A stretch of DNA of 64,000 nt from Gudongella oleilytica (lineage in GTDB: Bacteria > Bacillota > Clostridia > Tissierellales > Tissierellaceae), in contig NZ_CP035130.1 of assembly GCF_004101785.1 (NCBI RefSeq), positions 1,116,001 to 1,180,000 of the forward strand, given 5' to 3'. The position numbers and the translations under genes are program-made. Below, one piece after another: positions 12,168 through 57,207 of this stretch; position 1 is the stretch's first letter, and every line of letters starts with the position of its first letter. The notes under the pieces are model-generated. The model made no database searches and was not told the DNA's origin. It saw nothing but the letters and a program-made list of their open reading frames with translations.

Positions 12168-12392
12168 TACAGATAATGGCAAGGATAGGAACCAGTAATC
12201 AGATCAATGAGGTAAAGAGAGTCAGCGAATGGTGAGAGTTGACCCTTACATCTGACGAAGACAACCTGGAGCCTGCGGATCTACCGCACGTGGGAAGCGT
12301 TAAAAGAAGAGTGAGGATAGCCTAATTAGGGTGGTACCGCGAGATTGCCTCTCGTCCCTGAAAATCAGAGATGAGGGGCTTAATTTATTTTT
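12168..12392 (+). promoter_or_regulatory. T-box leader, probably Asp-specific
   Basis: Leader RNA that senses uncharged tRNA. The conserved T-box AGGGTGGTACCGCGA lies at about 12328-12342. Stem I occupies roughly 12170-12280 and contains GAC triplets at 12254-12256 and 12260-12262. Either would specify aspartate, in agreement with aspS downstream. The antiterminator region overlaps the terminator that follows. The 280-base gap between hemZ and aspS is filled by promoter plus T-box. Which GAC is the specifier cannot be settled by eye. Confidence 0.92.
12347..12392 (+). terminator. T-box-controlled terminator
   Basis: A 14-base arm starting GCCTCTCGTC (12347) pairs with the arm ending GAGATGAGGGGC (12379), with one mismatch. 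TTAATTTATTTTT follows. It is the off-state of the aspS T-box. Confidence 0.85.
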
Positions 12393-12406: not shown

Positions 12407-14191
12407 ATGGGAGAAAGAATGGGAAACCTGAGAAGAAGCATGATGTGTGGAGAACTCAGCATCAGTGATGTTGGCAAGGAAGTTACCTTAATGGGTTGGG
12501 TTCAAAGAGAAAGGAATCTTGGAGGGCTGATGTTCGTAGATCTCAGGGACACCACTGGGATCTCGCAAATAGTGTTTGATGATAGCGTACCGAGGGAACT
12601 GATTGAAAAGGCCGAAAGCATAAGAGCTGAATATGTAATAGCTGTAAAGGGTATCGTAAGGGAAAGACAGTCGAAGAATCCAAACATGGCTACAGGTGAT
12701 GTTGAGCTTCTTGTCTCTGAACTAAAGATACTTGATGAAGCCGAAACTCCCCCGATCTACATTAAGGATGATGACAACGTTAGTGAATCAATGAGATTGA
12801 AATACAGATATCTCGACCTTAGAAAACCTGGGATGCAGAGCAATCTTAAGCTTAGAGCTAAGGTAGCGAAAACAGTGAGGGATTTCTTTTATGAAAATAG
12901 ATTTGTTGAGGTGGAAACTCCCGTTCTTACTAAGCCAACACCTGAAGGGGCGAGAGACTACTTGGTACCAAGCAGGGTGAATCCTGGCCAGTTTTATGCA
13001 CTTCCCCAATCACCTCAGCTTCTTAAACAATTGTTGATGGTTTCGGGCATGGACAGATATTACCAGATTGTAAAATGCTTTAGAGACGAGGACCTAAGGG
13101 CAAACAGACAGCCTGAATTTACCCAGATAGATATAGAGATGAGCTTTGTTGAGGTAGATGATGTTCTTTCGATGAATGAAAAGCTTATGAAAAGACTATT
13201 CAAAGAGATAAAGGGAATCGACATAGAACTGCCTCTTAGAAGGATGTCCTATGAAGAAGCAATGAAAAGATTTGGGGTGGACAAACCAGATTTAAGGTTT
13301 GGATTCGAACTGAACGATATTTCAGATATTGCATCGAAGTCTCAATTTAAGGTATTTTCTGATGCAGTAGCCAATGGTGGAGCTGTTAAAGGTATCAACC
13401 TTAATGGTTATGGCGAAAGCTTTACAAGGAAAGATATAGCTTCCCTGGAGGATTATGTTAAAACCTATGGCGCTAAGGGTCTGGCATGGATTAAGGTGAC
13501 CAAAGAAGGAATAACCTCTCCCATAGGGAAATTCTTCAGTGATGCAGATATGAGTACACTTCTTTACAGATTCGATGCTAAGGAAGGCGATCTTATACTT
13601 ATTATTGCTGATAAGCTGTCCGTTGTATCTGACAGCCTTGGCAATCTTAGAAATGAGGTTGCCAAGAGACTTGGGATACTCAGGGATGACCATTATGAAA
13701 TGCTTTGGATCACGGAGTTCCCATTACTGGAATATGATGAGGATGCGAAGAGATACGTTGCAAAACATCATCCATTCACTCACCCGGTGGAAGAGGATAT
13801 TGAGTTACTGGAGAGCAATCCGGATAAGGTCAGGGCAAAGGCATATGATTTGGTTATAAACGGAGATGAAATGGGTGGAGGCAGCATAAGGATAAATAAT
13901 TCCGGGCTTCAAAGCAGAATGTTCAAGGCTCTCGGTCTTAGTGAGGAAGAAGCACAGGATAAATTCGGTTTCCTTTTGGAAGCATTCAGGTACGGGACCC
14001 CTCCCCATGGTGGGATTGCATTTGGTTTGGATAGGCTTATAATGTTATTCTCGGGATCGTCAAACATAAGAGATGTTATCGCATTTCCCAAAACTCAGTC
14101 TGCAACATGCTTGATGACTGGTGCACCAACACATGTTACTGCGGAGCAGTTAACTGAAGCCCATATAAAGGTCGATGTGGATAATGAATAA
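12407..14191 (+). CDS. aspS: Aspartyl-tRNA synthetase
   Basis: Class II synthetase that charges tRNA-Asp, and possibly tRNA-Asn, in the cytoplasm. The 594 residues show the bacterial layout: N-terminal OB anticodon-binding domain (GWVQRERNLGGLMFVDLRD), class II motif 2 region (RCFRDEDLRANRQPEFTQ-type, here KCFRDEDLRANRQPEFTQI), the bacterial GAD insertion domain at about residues 300-420, and motif 3 near the C-terminus (PHGGIAFGLDRLIML). The ATG at 12407 follows AGGAGGGA by 6 bases; an alternative ATG lies 12 bases on. Expression is controlled by the T-box upstream. Confidence 0.97.
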   Translation: MGERMGNLRRSMMCGELSISDVGKEVTLMGWVQRERNLGGLMFVDLRDTTGISQIVFDDSVPRELIEKAESIRAEYVIAVKGIVRERQSKNPNMATGDVELLVSELKILDEAETPPIYIKDDDNVSESMRLKYRYLDLRKPGMQSNLKLRAKVAKTVRDFFYENRFVEVETPVLTKPTPEGARDYLVPSRVNPGQFYALPQSPQLLKQLLMVSGMDRYYQIVKCFRDEDLRANRQPEFTQIDIEMSFVEVDDVLSMNEKLMKRLFKEIKGIDIELPLRRMSYEEAMKRFGVDKPDLRFGFELNDISDIASKSQFKVFSDAVANGGAVKGINLNGYGESFTRKDIASLEDYVKTYGAKGLAWIKVTKEGITSPIGKFFSDADMSTLLYRFDAKEGDLILIIADKLSVVSDSLGNLRNEVAKRLGILRDDHYEMLWITEFPLLEYDEDAKRYVAKHHPFTHPVEEDIELLESNPDKVRAKAYDLVINGDEMGGGSIRINNSGLQSRMFKALGLSEEEAQDKFGFLLEAFRYGTPPHGGIAFGLDRLIMLFSGSSNIRDVIAFPKTQSATCLMTGAPTHVTAEQLTEAHIKVDVDNE

Positions 14192-14900
14192 TGCTTTCAT
14201 AAGATCATCCTATCTGCTTGGTTCAGAGGGTATGGAGAGACTTGGAAACAGCAAGGTGGCTATTTTTGGCATTGGAGGAGTTGGGTCCTATGCTGCGGAG
14301 GCTTTAGCCAGAACTGGAATAGGAAGCTTGATTCTGATAGACTATGATACAATTGATGTTACTAATATAAATAGACAGATCCATGCAACTTCAAAGACTG
14401 TTGGTTTGCCTAAGGTCGATGTTATGAGAGATAGGCTGCTGGAGATAAATCCTGGGTTGATAATAGAAGCGATTCAGGAGCGATATACAAAAGACACAAG
14501 ACAAGAGTTTTTGGATCCTTCATTTGACTATATTATTGACGCTATAGATATGGTATCATCAAAGATAGATTTGGTTACAAGTTCGCTTGAAATGGGTATA
14601 CCTATCATAAGCTCAATGGGAGCAGGTAATAAGCTTGATCCTACAGCTTTTCTGGTCAGCGATATATACAATACCAGGGTATGTCCATTGGCAAGGGTCA
14701 TGAGAAATGAGCTTAGAAAAAGAGGAGTCAAGGCTCTTAAGGTTGTTTATTCGCCAGAAGAACCTATTGATGTGAATCTGGGGGATATCGACAGAAGAAA
14801 AGCGATACCAGGCAGTGTTTCATTTGTCCCTTCAGTTGCAGGACTAATACTTGCCGGTGAGGTAATCAAGGATATAGCTTTAAGGGAGGAGGATATGTAG
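14184..14900 (+). CDS. tcdA: tRNA threonylcarbamoyladenosine dehydratase
   Basis: ThiF/E1-like enzyme that dehydrates t6A-37 of tRNA to the cyclic form ct6A using ATP. The 238 residues include the nucleotide-binding motif FGIGGVGSYAAEALARTG near residue 25. DYDTIDVTNINRQ, and the CPLARVMRNELRKRGV region characteristic of TcdA, follow. I prefer the ATG at 14184, because AAAGG lies 11 bases upstream; an in-frame ATG at 14175 is possible. The start overlaps the aspS stop, so the two are probably translationally coupled. Confidence 0.9.
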   Translation: MNNAFIRSSYLLGSEGMERLGNSKVAIFGIGGVGSYAAEALARTGIGSLILIDYDTIDVTNINRQIHATSKTVGLPKVDVMRDRLLEINPGLIIEAIQERYTKDTRQEFLDPSFDYIIDAIDMVSSKIDLVTSSLEMGIPIISSMGAGNKLDPTAFLVSDIYNTRVCPLARVMRNELRKRGVKALKVVYSPEEPIDVNLGDIDRRKAIPGSVSFVPSVAGLILAGEVIKDIALREEDM

Positions 14901-14901
14901 T

Positions 14902-15324
14902 ATGGAACAAATCGGATATGTGACTGGTTTTGTGGGCGACAACAAGGTACAGCTTGAAGTAAAGAGGACAGCTGGGTGAGGCAGTTGTAAAGGCTGCGCA
15001 AGTTCTTGCGAGGAAAAACCCCACTATGTTGTGCTCAAGAATAATATAGATGCTAAGCCTGGAGATTTCGTTGAGCTTCAGGCAATACAAAAAAATATAA
15101 TGAAGTATATAACAATAATTTACATGATTCCCTTCGCATTTTTGATAATGGGGATCATCGTAGGAAACTTGATATTCAAAGGTGCTGACACTGCTAACAA
15201 GGAGCTTTCGAGCTTCGGAGTAGGGATTGTTTTTCTTGCTATCGCTTTTTTTGTCATTAGAATCATAGATAGAAGCTTTGCCAAGAAGGATGAAAGTGTC
15301 ATAGTTATGACTAGAAAGCTATAG
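14902..15324 (+). CDS. rseC: RseC-family membrane protein, probable selenoprotein (in-frame TGA)
   Basis: Reading from the ATG at 14902, with GGGAGGAGG 10 bases upstream, the frame meets TGA at 14977-14979 and continues open to 15324, 140 residues in all. The protein has the SoxR-reducing/RseC layout: a short N-terminal beta region, a Cys-rich motif, then two membrane spans (about residues 72-95 and 106-125). The motif reads TAGUGSCKGCASSC, where U is the TGA. Family members have Cys-x2-Cys-x2-Cys with the first Cys at this position, so the TGA stands exactly for a conserved redox cysteine, and a SECIS-like hairpin follows. RseC proteins act with Rnf/Rsx electron-transfer systems in other bacteria. 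A nonsense mutation of TGC or TGT is the alternative. A gene finder would report only the 97-residue fragment from 15031. Confidence 0.8.
14977..14979 (+). other. In-frame TGA, candidate selenocysteine codon (residue 26)
   Basis: The TGA is in frame with both the upstream start and the downstream conserved part of the RseC-family gene. It takes the place of the first cysteine in the C-x2-C-x2-C motif. Other genes here, such as tgt and plsY, end in TGA, so the code is not one with UGA as tryptophan. Confidence 0.7.
14980..15013 (+). promoter_or_regulatory. Putative bacterial SECIS element
   Basis: CGCAA (14997-15001) pairs with TTGCG (15006-15010) around the loop GTTC. CT (14994-14995) pairs with AG (15011-15012) across a single bulged G. 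The stem starts 17 bases after the TGA and the loop 22 bases after it, with G as first loop base. That fits the bacterial SECIS pattern I know (apical loop about 16-37 bases downstream, G among the first two loop bases). Confidence 0.6.
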
Positions 15325-15336
15325 GGGGGATCTGAC

Positions 15337-15591
15337 TTGACTGACAAGGATTCTTTGATAGTTAGACTTAGGAGAATAGAAGGCCAAATTAAGGGTATAC
15401 AGAAAATGGTCGAGGAGGATAAATTCTGCGGTGATATCCTGATACAGATTTCTGCTTCAAGAAGCGCACTTAACAATGTAGGCGGGCTTATCCTTGAGAA
15501 CTATATGAAGCATTGTTTACTCGAGTCACCTGACGGTAAAGAGCAGGATATGGATAAACTAATTGAAATTATGCTGAAGTATACCAAGTAA
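15337..15591 (+). CDS. CsoR/FrmR-family repressor, CstR-like
   Basis: DUF156-family DNA-binding repressor of 84 residues, all-helical (IVRLRRIEGQIKGIQKMVEE). The sensor cysteines are C31 (KFCGDIL) and C60 (KHC). In copper-sensing CsoR a histidine stands four residues before the second cysteine; here that position is Tyr56. The C31/C60 pair without the histidine resembles CstR, which senses persulfide or polysulfide by disulfide or polysulfide crosslinking. The start is TTG at 15337, behind GGGGGG, 12 bases after the RseC-like gene, so the two are probably one operon. The target genes are not known. Confidence 0.85.
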   Translation: MTDKDSLIVRLRRIEGQIKGIQKMVEEDKFCGDILIQISASRSALNNVGGLILENYMKHCLLESPDGKEQDMDKLIEIMLKYTK

Positions 15592-16946: not shown

Positions 16947-18284
16947 ATGGAAATTACAAATATCAGGGAATCAAGGAATATAATTGAGGACGTCGTCATT
17001 GGCAGTATAGCTGATGAGCTTGGAATAGATCCTGGGGACATTCTCGTTAGCATAAACGACAAACCGGTGAGGGACGTAATAGATTACAGGTATCTTATAT
17101 CTGATGAGCTGCTTGATATTGTCATTGAAAAAAAAGACGGAGAGCTTTGGGAATTTGAGATTGAGAAGGATTTTAATGAGGATATTGGTATTATATTTAC
17201 AAATCCTTTGATAGACAAAGCAAAGACCTGTCAGAATAAATGTATGTTCTGCTTTATAGATCAGTTGCCGCAAAACATGAGAGATACTTTATATTTTAAG
17301 GATGATGATTCGCGGCTGTCATTTTTACAGGGTAATTTTATCACCATGACAAATATGAATGAGGACGACATTCAAAGAATAATTGACTATAAACTAAGCC
17401 CAATCAACGTTTCGGTGCATACTACAAATCCTGAACTAAGAATCAAAATGCTAAGGAACAAAAAAGCCGGAGCTATCTTTGATACTCTTAAGAGGTTCCA
17501 TGAAGCTGGACTGGAGATGAATTGTCAGATAGTGCTTGTCCCTGGGGTGAATGATGGTTTAGAGCTAAAGCGAACAATAAGCGACCTTTCTTCTTTGTAT
17601 CCATCGATAAATTCAGTGGCTGTTGTTCCAGTGGGCATAACAAAATACAGGGATGGATTGGATTCGCTGCAAATATATGATCAAGAGTCTGCTTCTAAGC
17701 TAATAGAACAGATTGATGAGATGCAGCATGAGTATCTTGAGAGTCATGGCACAAGATTTGTCTTTGCTTCCGACGAATTCTATTGTGTATCAGGCAAGGA
17801 GCTGCCGGATCATGATTTTTATGAGGGCTTTCCTCAGTACGAAAATGGAGTGGGTTTGTTAAGATCCTTCTCTTATGAATTGGTGGAAGCATTGGATGGT
17901 ATAAATGTGATCCAATCAGATAAATGACTTCTTATCGCTACGGGAAAGCTTGCATCGAACTTCATGAAAAACATGTCAGAGATGGTTATAAATAAGATAT
18001 CGGGTCTAATAATTGATGTCATTCCAATCAAAAACAATTTCTTTGGCGAGACGATAACAGTTTCTGGACTTATAACCGGCGGAGACCTGGTTGACCAAGT
18101 AAGAGGAAGTGAAGAATACGACGCTGTTTTTATTCCAAAGTCGATGATGAAAAGAGACGAGGACATATTCCTGGATAATATGACATTTGGTCAAGCAAGT
18201 GAATTCCTGATGAACAGGCTTAGATTAGTGCCTGTAGATGGTAGAGAGTTTTTAGAATCAATTATGAAAGAGGTGAGGTCGTGA
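16947..18284 (+). CDS. DUF512 radical SAM protein, interrupted by in-frame TGA
   Basis: Clostridial family next to der: an N-terminal PDZ-like domain (DELGIDPGDILVSINDKPV), the radical SAM motif CQNKCMFC at residues 95-102, and a C-terminal DUF512 domain (FFGETITVSGLITGGDLV). The frame stops at TGA 17925-17927 (codon 327) and then continues open, in the same frame, to 18284, for 445 residues in total, which is the normal family length. The residue at the TGA is usually basic or variable in my recollection, so a nonsense change from AGA or CGA, or a sequencing error, is likelier than selenocysteine. No convincing SECIS hairpin follows. The last 4 bases overlap der. The function of the family is unknown. 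Confidence 0.8.
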
Positions 18285-37492: not shown

Positions 37493-38830
37493 ATGGAATC
37501 GGGAAGAGAGCTTGCAATAAAAATATTGAATAGAATACAGAACGAAGGTGCTTATTCGACCCTTGCCGTAAAAAAAGCTTTAGAAGATAAAAGTGAAAGA
37601 AAGGATTCAGGCTTTGTCAGGGAGTTAGTTTACGGTGTTCTGGAAAATCAGAGATTGATAGACGAAATAGTCAAAGAATCGTCCAGTGTCAAGATCAGAA
37701 GGATCCATCCAATAATTCTCATTATTCTAAGAACAGCTATATATCAGCTCTTGTTTATGGACACCGTACCTGAGAGTGCAATAGTTAATGAAGCTGTGAA
37801 TCTTGCCAAGAAGTATGGCCATAGAGGGACTACAGGATTTGTGAATGCACTTCTTAGAGGGGTTTCCTCGAAGAAAGATTATTTCAAGAGCGAAGGGTAT
37901 ATGTCTCAAGAAAGTGAACTTGGGATAAGGTACTCTCATCCTGATTATTTAGTTGATTTATGGAGAATCCAGTATGGGCTGGAATTTACAAAGGACCTGT
38001 TAAAAGCTAATAATTCTGTTCCACCATTCACAATAAGAAACAATAGTCTGAAAATCGATACCACTGACCTAATATCTATACTTGAAGCCGAGGGATATGA
38101 AACAGAGCCTGGAAAATATTCTAAAGACTGTGTAATCATTAAGAATCCCAGGTCTATGACAAGACTGAGTGCGTATAATGACGGTCTTTTTACGATCCAG
38201 GATGAAGCAAGTATGCTAGTTACAGAAGTGCTGAATCCTCAAAAATACTCATTAATTCTGGATGTGTGCAGTGCCCCAGGTGGTAAGGCAACTCATATTG
38301 CCCAGTGGATTGGCGATAAAGGAACGATCATAGCAAGGGATATTTATCCTCATAAGCTTAAGCTTATCGAGGAACTGTCCTTGCGATTGGGTATAAAATC
38401 TATAAAATCTGAAATATGGGATGCCACAGAACTCGATGACAAGTTAAAATACAAAGTAGATTATTGTCTGGTTGATGCACCATGCTCTGGACTCGGTCTG
38501 ATAAGGAGAAAACCGGATATCAAGTGGACGCGTACCAGTGAGGAGCTAATAGAGCTTTCAAGACTCCAGACAAGTATCCTTAAGACGGCTTCAAGTTATA
38601 TTAAGCCAGGAGGAATACTTGTATATAGCACGTGTACTATCAATAGACAAGAAAATCTTGATGTTGTCACGAATTTTCTGAGGGAAAATACTGATTTTCG
38701 ATTATTGCCAATTGAGCTTGCAAACGGAGTAAAAATATCAGCAACACAAAATAGTGGTTATTTGGAGCTTTATCCCAATATTCATGGTACGGATGGGTTC
38801 TTTATGGCTAAGATGGTAAGAGAAGGATGA
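37493..38830 (+). CDS. rsmB: 16S rRNA (cytosine-967-C5) methyltransferase
   Basis: SAM-dependent RNA m5C methyltransferase. The 445 residues have an N-terminal NusB-like domain (residues 1-140), the SAM motif LDVCSAPGGKATHIA near residue 258, DAPCSGLGLIRRKPDIKW near 330 and the catalytic YSTCTI near 382. GGAGG precedes the ATG. rlmN, stp and prkC follow on the same strand, as in B. subtilis. Confidence 0.96.
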   Translation: MESGRELAIKILNRIQNEGAYSTLAVKKALEDKSERKDSGFVRELVYGVLENQRLIDEIVKESSSVKIRRIHPIILIILRTAIYQLLFMDTVPESAIVNEAVNLAKKYGHRGTTGFVNALLRGVSSKKDYFKSEGYMSQESELGIRYSHPDYLVDLWRIQYGLEFTKDLLKANNSVPPFTIRNNSLKIDTTDLISILEAEGYETEPGKYSKDCVIIKNPRSMTRLSAYNDGLFTIQDEASMLVTEVLNPQKYSLILDVCSAPGGKATHIAQWIGDKGTIIARDIYPHKLKLIEELSLRLGIKSIKSEIWDATELDDKLKYKVDYCLVDAPCSGLGLIRRKPDIKWTRTSEELIELSRLQTSILKTASSYIKPGGILVYSTCTINRQENLDVVTNFLRENTDFRLLPIELANGVKISATQNSGYLELYPNIHGTDGFFMAKMVREG

Positions 38831-44184: not shown

Positions 44185-44216
44185 GGTAGTACGAATAAAT
44201 AAATAAATATCAACAG

Positions 44217-44296
44217 CACTGGGGGAGCGTTAGCTGAGAGTGGAGAAATCCCGACCCTTATGACCTGAACTAGGTAATTCTAGCGGAGGGAAGTGT
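44217..44296 (+). promoter_or_regulatory. TPP riboswitch (THI element)
   Basis: The conserved core is visible: GGGGGAGC, GCTGAGAG, CCCTTATGACCTGA and CTAGGTAATTCTAGCGGAGGGA. It binds thiamine pyrophosphate and then favours the terminator downstream, which silences thiT-thiN. Confidence 0.95.
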
Positions 44297-44309
44297 ATAT
44301 AAAAAATAT

Positions 44310-56490: not shown

Positions 56491-57207
56491 ATGGATGGAA
56501 CGTTGTCTTCAAGGCTTAATAAGTTGCAGGAAAATCTGGAATACGGTTTCAAGGATATCGAACTATTGGAAACTGCATTGACCCATAGTTCTTATGCCAA
56601 TGAAAACGGTCTCCACCCCAGTAAAAGCAATCAAAGGCTTGAATTCTTAGGTGATACAGTAATCAATCTCGTCGTAAGCGAGTATCTTTACAATAAATAT
56701 CCATTCTATCCGGAGGGAGAACTGACTAAAATTAGAGCCAAGGTTGTATGCGAATCTTCCTTGGCTTTAGCTGCAAGAAAAATAAAATTGGGAGAATTCC
56801 TTCTGCTGGGGAAGGGAGAAGAAGCCACTGGCGGACGAAGTAGAGATTCAATACTGGCGGATGCCAGTGAAGCCATTGCAGGAGCGGTATTTCTTGACAG
56901 TGACTACGATACAGTAAAGAGATTCTTAGTTACAAGGTTTGAAACTGATATTGTAAGAGCTGTAGCAAAAGGAAATTTATTCATCGATTATAAGACGCAG
57001 CTTCAGGAGAAACTTCAAAAAATAACTAAAGAAAAGCTGAGTTATGCAGTAGTTAGGGAAGAGGGGCCAGATCACAATAAAATATTTTATGTTGACGTAT
57101 TTCTTGGGTCTGATGTTATTGGCTCGGGATTTGGAAGAAACAAAAAGGAAGCTGAACAACTATCTGCGAAAGAGGTTCTTATCCTGATGGGTGAAGATTA
57201 TGATTAG
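56491..57207 (+). CDS. rnc: Ribonuclease III
   Basis: Double-strand-specific RNase for rRNA and mRNA processing. The 238 residues include ALTHSSYANE, the metal-binding RLEFLGDTVINLVVSEYLY near residue 47, and ADASEAIAGAVFLD. A C-terminal dsRBD (DYKTQLQEKLQK, GFGRNKKEAEQLSAKE) ends the protein. GAGGTGATGGGG precedes the ATG. It overlaps the radical SAM gene by 8 bases. Confidence 0.96.
   Translation: MDGTLSSRLNKLQENLEYGFKDIELLETALTHSSYANENGLHPSKSNQRLEFLGDTVINLVVSEYLYNKYPFYPEGELTKIRAKVVCESSLALAARKIKLGEFLLLGKGEEATGGRSRDSILADASEAIAGAVFLDSDYDTVKRFLVTRFETDIVRAVAKGNLFIDYKTQLQEKLQKITKEKLSYAVVREEGPDHNKIFYVDVFLGSDVIGSGFGRNKKEAEQLSAKEVLILMGEDYD

Follow-up and report, generated by a model that had tools for sequence, protein, structure and literature searches.

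A conserved cysteine of the RseC family is probably replaced by selenocysteine (Sec) in Gudongella oleilytica and several of its relatives, as judged by comparing their genes. The gene in question lies in the window (the whole stretch of 64,000 nucleotides that we analysed), which is contained in a one-contig genome of 2,356,157 bases (G000). In the explanation that we consider best, and in which our confidence is high, it encodes an RseC-family membrane protein whose UGA codon 26 would be decoded as Sec via SelB, tRNA-Sec and a SECIS. The case for a selenoprotein rests mainly on the recurrence of TGA at the cysteine codon and on the presence of the Sec machinery, and at this comparative level the Sec reading of the window TGA is well supported.

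The candidate selenoprotein gene (rseC family, 14902..15324, + strand) runs from ATG 14902 to TAG 15322-15324, a frame of 140 codons with TGA 14977-14979 as its sole internal stop, and is preceded by the ribosome-binding site GGGAGGAGG at 14884..14892 (+). A preliminary description of this DNA had claimed a single 140-residue frame interrupted only by this TGA, a strong ribosome-binding site at its start and membership of the RseC family; direct reading of the sequence confirms the first two, and profile searches the third. When the TGA is read through, the whole protein matches PF04246 (RseC_MucC) across the TGA with 95.4 bits (cut-off 24.4; profile positions 5-129 of 130), its sole Pfam match at E<=0.001, and four other RseC proteins of the TGA form score 83.6-104.6 bits against the same profile. 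The first 24 codons alone had no match at E<=1 in the family profile search. Under the standard code, a remnant of 97 aa starting at GTG 15031 would be left, without the Cys motif and with 64.1 bits to PF04246, and annotation from that codon would drop the first 43 residues, as had been foreseen. The score against NF008115, the NCBIfam equivalog for E. coli-type RseC, is 24.6 bits and does not reach the cut-off of 184, so the window protein is a member of the RseC family and not an E. coli-type equivalog. Relatives of the gene at 70-74% identity that have names are from MAGs recorded as Gudongella sp., Soehngenia sp. and Bacillota bacterium.

The putative Sec codon (14977..14979, +) opens the motif U-G-S-C-K-G-C, residues 26-32 of the read-through protein, in which the partners of Sec would be Cys29 (TGT 14986-14988) and Cys32 (TGC 14995-14997), together spanning 14986..14997 (+). 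In an alignment of 17 rows including E. coli RseC (sequence from NC_000913), the TGA codon is aligned with E. coli Cys26, and with Sec counted as Cys no Cys column is invariant apart from 26, 29 and 32. Counted in this way, the three columns are also invariant in an alignment of 31 rows (6 rows from the order scan and G017, picked for TGA or nearness, the remainder being Cys forms), where all rows without TGA have Cys in the Sec column. The suggestion that the TGA replaces the first cysteine of C-x2-C-x2-C is thus upheld by both alignments, where it meets an otherwise invariant cysteine. A scan for frames open on both sides of a stop returned 30 TGA places in the window, four of them on the + strand. 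Other TGA-crossed frames on that strand proved ordinary, with the TGAs at 38828 and 17925 ending the ORFs 37493-38830 and 16947-17927, and that at 57185 lying just before the ORF start at 57191 and inside the end of the ORF 56491-57207.

Scans of the order, the class and the family of G366 gave RseC matches in 241 of 249, 181 of 391 and 65 of 71 genomes, respectively. Among the matches listed from these three scans, TGA lies inside RseC in at least 10 genomes from five genera and three families (G000, G221 and G222 of genus g1; G239 and G240 of g10; G017 of g22; G366 and G411 of g185; G652 and G653 of g311), and none contains TAA or TAG. We collected 44 rseC genes: the 30 best of the order scan, five of them with TGA, the gene of G017, and 13 genes, four with TGA, from the family to which G366 belongs. 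Ten of the 44 have TGA and the other 34 have TGT or TGC. All ten TGA forms have a single internal stop, this TGA, and it occupies one aligned codon throughout (25 or 26). Named records among them are Bacillota bacterium CSMAG_1285 (L053), Gudongella sp. M17C-05 (L054), Tissierella creatinophila DSM 6911 (L059) and Tissierella sp. MAG (L061), which are the same contigs as G222, G221, G239 and G240 and were counted once. Because the column is Cys in other rows, TGA recurs in at least 10 genomes and the listed matches hold no TAA or TAG, the TGA goes beyond chance. The preliminary description had proposed looking for TGA at the same codon in related species, and nine genomes besides G000 have it. 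It had also held that a close relative with TGC or TGT, together with a TGA that was a private mutation or read error, would speak against a selenoprotein: such a relative occurs once, in G220, which belongs to genus g1 and has TGT at the Sec codon, but the TGA is not private to G000. Since G221 and G222 of the same genus carry TGA, the TGT of G220 reads as a Sec/Cys exchange and not as a private mutation or read error.

The search for selA, selB, selD and a tRNA-Sec gene that had been suggested found all four over cut-off in G000. The tRNA-Sec scores 71.4 bits with RF01852 and is called by ARAGORN as tRNA-SeC with anticodon tca, SelB, SelA and SelD score 384.6, 620.7 and 395 bits, and the four cluster within about 5.2 kb (1393.2-1398.5 kb); a second, weaker RF01852 match (50.7 bits) is also over cut-off. 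The selD gene (C1:1397530-1398456, - strand; profile match 395 bits) itself contains one in-frame TGA, which from its sequence is a built-in sign that G000 reads UGA as Sec. In the same search, the selD matches over cut-off in 11 other genomes have one in-frame TGA each. Curated cut-offs are needed here, as at E<=0.001 the tRNA-Sec, SelB and SelD searches match all 14 control genomes; over cut-off, the controls have tRNA-Sec in 5 of 14, SelB in 2, SelD in 2 and SelA in 1. In each of the ten TGA genomes, tRNA-Sec and SelD exceed their cut-offs; SelA was found in all eight of these genomes that were tested for it, and SelB in all three. G389, whose rseC codon is Cys, is without SelA, without tRNA-Sec at E<=1e-8 and without SelD over cut-off. 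Presence of the machinery does not require Sec in RseC, since SelA and a Cys-form RseC occur together in G220, G431 and G520. Taken with the alignment to a Cys column and the nine other TGA genomes, the sel genes of G000 favour the selenoprotein that the preliminary description had inferred.

In bacterial SECIS elements, a G falls within the first two bases of the loop. Downstream of the window TGA, a hairpin rule identified a SECIS-like hairpin, CGCAA-GUUC-UUGCG (14997..15010, +), the apical loop of which starts 23 bases after the TGA. The rule comprised at least 4 bp, a loop of 3-8, a loop start 19-27 bases past the codon, a G as first or second base of the loop and -2 kcal/mol or below; a small apical loop holding G has been described for SECIS (PMC1088965). 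A hairpin that passes is present in 10 of 10 TGA forms versus 12 of 34 Cys forms; Fisher's test, in which related sequences count as independent, gives p 5e-4. In the TGA forms its loop starts 22-25 bases after the codon, and at this near-constant distance the stems vary by lineage (CGCAA/UUGCG in g1, GCAGU/GCUGC in g10, CUUCG/CGAAG in G366, and others). Shuffling of synonymous codons gave combined p values of 1.1e-7 for the Sec forms versus 0.07 for the Cys forms, and the hairpin p values are optimistic because the loop range was fixed after the first eight TGA forms were known and the rows are related. The later additions G652 and G653 also fit, with shuffle p values of 0.005 and 0.002. Single Sec forms range from 0.002 to 0.28, the signal being weak in G366 (0.28) and G411 (0.15), and five Cys forms (G202, G195, G220, G229 and G232) fall below 0.05. 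Folding energy by itself does not set the hairpin apart. The 44-54 bases after the TGA showed no signal in folding energy against dinucleotide shuffles (window z-score -0.68), Sec and Cys forms were not told apart by their best hairpin when it was chosen without restriction, and stronger hairpins occur among the Cys forms (G202, -12.4 kcal/mol; G195, -11.2 kcal/mol). The hairpin appears in the minimum-energy fold of two of the five TGA forms folded (the window and L054, not L053, L059 or L061), and the Cys form L052 also folds one at the corresponding place.

Codon conservation was assessed at positions where the two sequences of a pair agree in amino acid, as the share with the same codon. 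Over the 11 codons after Sec, the codon is the same at 31 of 39 such positions versus 179 of 324 elsewhere when one Sec-Sec pair is taken for each of four genera (p 0.0025), and at 46 of 57 versus 261 of 501 in all six Sec-Sec pairs, three of which are from g1. Pairs with a Cys member gave 22 of 38 versus 219 of 372 for the first four and 34 of 54 versus 313 of 568 for all six (p 0.17); the two further pairs both contain the hairpin-keeping G220 and lean to conservation (6 of 8 each). In the Sec-Sec pairs, dN/dS is 0.06-0.31 before and after the TGA, as measured on the stretches where dS is unsaturated (several are saturated).

These results bear on three other readings of the TGA. A pseudogene or sequencing error, with the TGA as a nonsense mutation or miscall, would agree with the TGT of G220 at this codon in the same genus, but we consider it extremely unlikely: TGA occupies the same codon in 10 genomes of five genera with no TAA or TAG in the matches listed, protein changes are constrained on both sides of it, and the fact that it is met again in separate assemblies, Tissierella creatinophila DSM 6911 among them, strongly opposes an error. 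A special tRNA might instead insert cysteine or tryptophan at UGA. UGA-reading tRNA-Cys exist, and one of them would also preserve a Cys column. UGA nevertheless ends other ORFs of the window (for example 37493-38830), the column is Cys and not Trp, and the sole tRNA with a tca anticodon that ARAGORN reports in a 6.5-kb stretch is tRNA-Sec; such decoding would moreover need neither the hairpin nor the extra codon conservation, and we give it very little credence. The gene could also yield two products, a 25-codon leader ending at the TGA and a two-helix part from GTG 15031 without the cysteines, and the remnant from that GTG does still match PF04246. Against this, constraint on the protein extends over the stretch from the TGA to GTG 15031, which also retains the conserved Cys29 and Cys32, and the strong ribosome-binding site stands at the start at 14902, which makes two products a very improbable arrangement. 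We infer Sec insertion in RseC, where SelB and tRNA-Sec would decode UGA codon 26 under the direction of the downstream hairpin acting as a SECIS. The N-terminal domain has a conserved trio of cysteines, and Sec would take the place of the first (U-x2-C-x2-C).

The distribution of the two residues suggests that Sec and Cys interchange repeatedly at this RseC codon in anaerobic Clostridia that keep the Sec machinery. A tree of 44 proteins has 7 Sec/Cys changes, at least 5 of them forced by well-supported branches; it contains a long branch (G017) and a weak root, and 19 of 500 label shuffles were as low in changes. A single origin of Sec in RseC was considered and is unsupported, as the tree needs 7 changes. 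G220 (TGT) pairs with G221 (TGA) with support of 95/85, in a genus of which the other three genomes analysed all have TGA, and it would most simply be a return to Cys with a relic SECIS, the direction being unproven. In this genome, a Soehngenia sp. MAG, a SECIS-like hairpin follows the TGT codon (L052 3076-3119; shuffle p 0.02), possibly as a relic of that Sec-to-Cys return.

E. coli RseC acts with the Rsx complex on SoxR. Its N-terminal domain has been reported to carry an oxygen-sensitive [4Fe-4S] cluster held by three cysteines (26, 29 and 35), yet the protein tolerates single Cys-to-Ser changes and two of the three cysteines suffice for SoxR reduction (PMC11729352). Because of this tolerance, the benefit of Sec in RseC is not evident. 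SoxR (TIGR01950) had no match in G000 at E<=0.001 and was over cut-off in 0 of 11 genomes, with weak matches in 4 of the 11; since SoxR was not found in G000, we dropped its reduction as a function of the window RseC. In Clostridium ljungdahlii, autotrophy is lost and rnf is expressed less when rseC is deleted (PMC9124969). The Rnf/Rsx complex of G000 was judged present by its rnfC gene, which scores 540.1 bits and lies about 290 kb from rseC; all 28 genomes searched in the taxonomic family have an rnfC above cut-off.

By analogy with E. coli RseC, the protein here would most likely serve Rnf as a partner or sensor that is redox-active or carries a cluster, Sec being one of three cluster or redox residues. 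U26, C29 and C32 may bind an oxygen-sensitive [4Fe-4S] cluster or serve as a thiol/selenol set in redox reactions, RseC would stand beside the Rnf complex, passing or sensing electrons, and Sec may tune the potential or the oxidation resistance of the three-residue site. Both the iron-sulfur cluster and the link of Sec-containing RseC to Rnf are thus suggested by the homologues. We can only tentatively propose, as something well short of probable, that Sec is a natural [4Fe-4S] ligand in an Rnf-coupled membrane protein, with an encoded swap of selenium for sulfur that was made and reversed several times in the Clostridia. A selenoprotein whose Sec is neither a cluster ligand nor an Rnf partner but a catalytic selenol (in a reductase, a peroxidase, or metal or persulfide handling) has not much less than an even chance of being correct. 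That rseC has a CsoR/RcnR-type repressor gene as its neighbour in two families points this way, as do the absence of a SoxR match in G000 and the sufficiency of two of the three E. coli cysteines for SoxR reduction (PMC11729352). The three conserved residues and the reported cluster of E. coli RseC nevertheless fit a cluster better. To our knowledge, no enzyme activity has been assigned to the RseC family, which also tells against catalysis.

An AlphaFold model of the protein (mean pLDDT 80.8, pTM 0.57) has strands at residues 2-12, 15-21, 41-46, 56-61 and 134-139 and helices at 63-91 and 100-129, a predicted small N-terminal beta domain followed by two long helices. The helices agree with the two membrane spans of the preliminary description. 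The Cys-motif blocks have a mean pLDDT of 56-57, so that the model is uninformative on cluster geometry. A fold search with the model gave 0 PDB matches at E<=0.001 (50 weak matches were listed, mostly ribosomal proteins), and the best two matches of a PDB sequence search (E 0.4 and 0.64) were taken as chance.

Among known systems, E. coli RseC (b2570, of the SoxR-reducing system) presumably belongs to the same Pfam family as the window protein. The two align along the domain with 21% identity, and Cys 26, 29 and 35 align with U26, C29 and C32; the window protein differs in having Sec for Cys26 and a shorter gap between the second and third cysteines. The E. coli gene has rpoE-rseAB as neighbours, whereas ThiF-family and CsoR-type genes flank rseC in the window and G000 has no SoxR match. 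The RseC of C. ljungdahlii is likewise clostridial and from an Rnf-bearing anaerobe, a likeness drawn from its description and not from its sequence (PMC9124969); in G000, rseC stands apart from rnfC by about 290 kb. UGSC-containing and UxxC selenoproteins, whose motifs are redox motifs, share a Sec followed by Cys at short spacing, but no domain given for them in Table 1 of a 2026 review is PF04246/RseC (PMC13188914), and NF041046 (UGSC) was not among the NCBIfam matches of the window protein at E<=0.001. GrdB of glycine reductase (UxxCxxC) has the same U-x2-C-x2-C spacing; it is, however, a substrate-binding subunit assigned to PF07355, and the window protein is assigned to PF04246 (PMC13188914).

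Table 1 of that review covers 119 prokaryotic selenoprotein families or subfamilies, and PF04246/RseC has no entry anywhere in it (PMC13188914), in keeping with the earlier remark that RseC is not among the well-known selenoproteins. The words RseC, SoxR, sigma and MucC are absent from the main text of PMC13188914, PMC9312934 and PMC5029168, and no report of a Sec-containing RseC was found among the listed titles and abstract openings from open-licence PMC papers. Within the literature so covered, the window RseC is an unreported Sec variant of a known family. If the reading is right, it would add a new family beside the 119 (PMC13188914), and Sec would then occur in a protein connected with Rnf, an energy-conserving complex. 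Natural Sec/Cys pairs in which to ask what selenium adds are G221 and G220, G411 and G431, and G652 and G653 beside G651. Under the standard code, such Sec genes would be called shortened or broken.

Directly upstream of rseC is a ThiF-family gene (14175..14900, +; PF00899, 144.8 bits), which we take to be TcdA-like, and directly downstream is a gene for a CsoR/RcnR-type metal-sensitive repressor (15337..15591, +; PF02583, 98.6 bits). A ThiF-family gene also lies directly upstream of rseC in the more distant G017 (L047 1326-2030). A CsoR/RcnR-type gene directly precedes rseC in G653 and G651, which belong to another family (L089 1181-1513; L091 1203-1538), its identity resting on PF02583 in the window and L089 and on sequence likeness in L091; rseC and this type of repressor gene are a recurrent pairing. 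A neighbouring 570-base stretch had no match in a plasmid collection. Elsewhere in the window, a T-box leader (12173-12362; RF00230, 106.5 bits) lies ahead of the ORF at 12407, presumably an aspartyl-tRNA synthetase gene, and a TPP riboswitch is found at 44211-44308 (RF00059, 61.7 bits).
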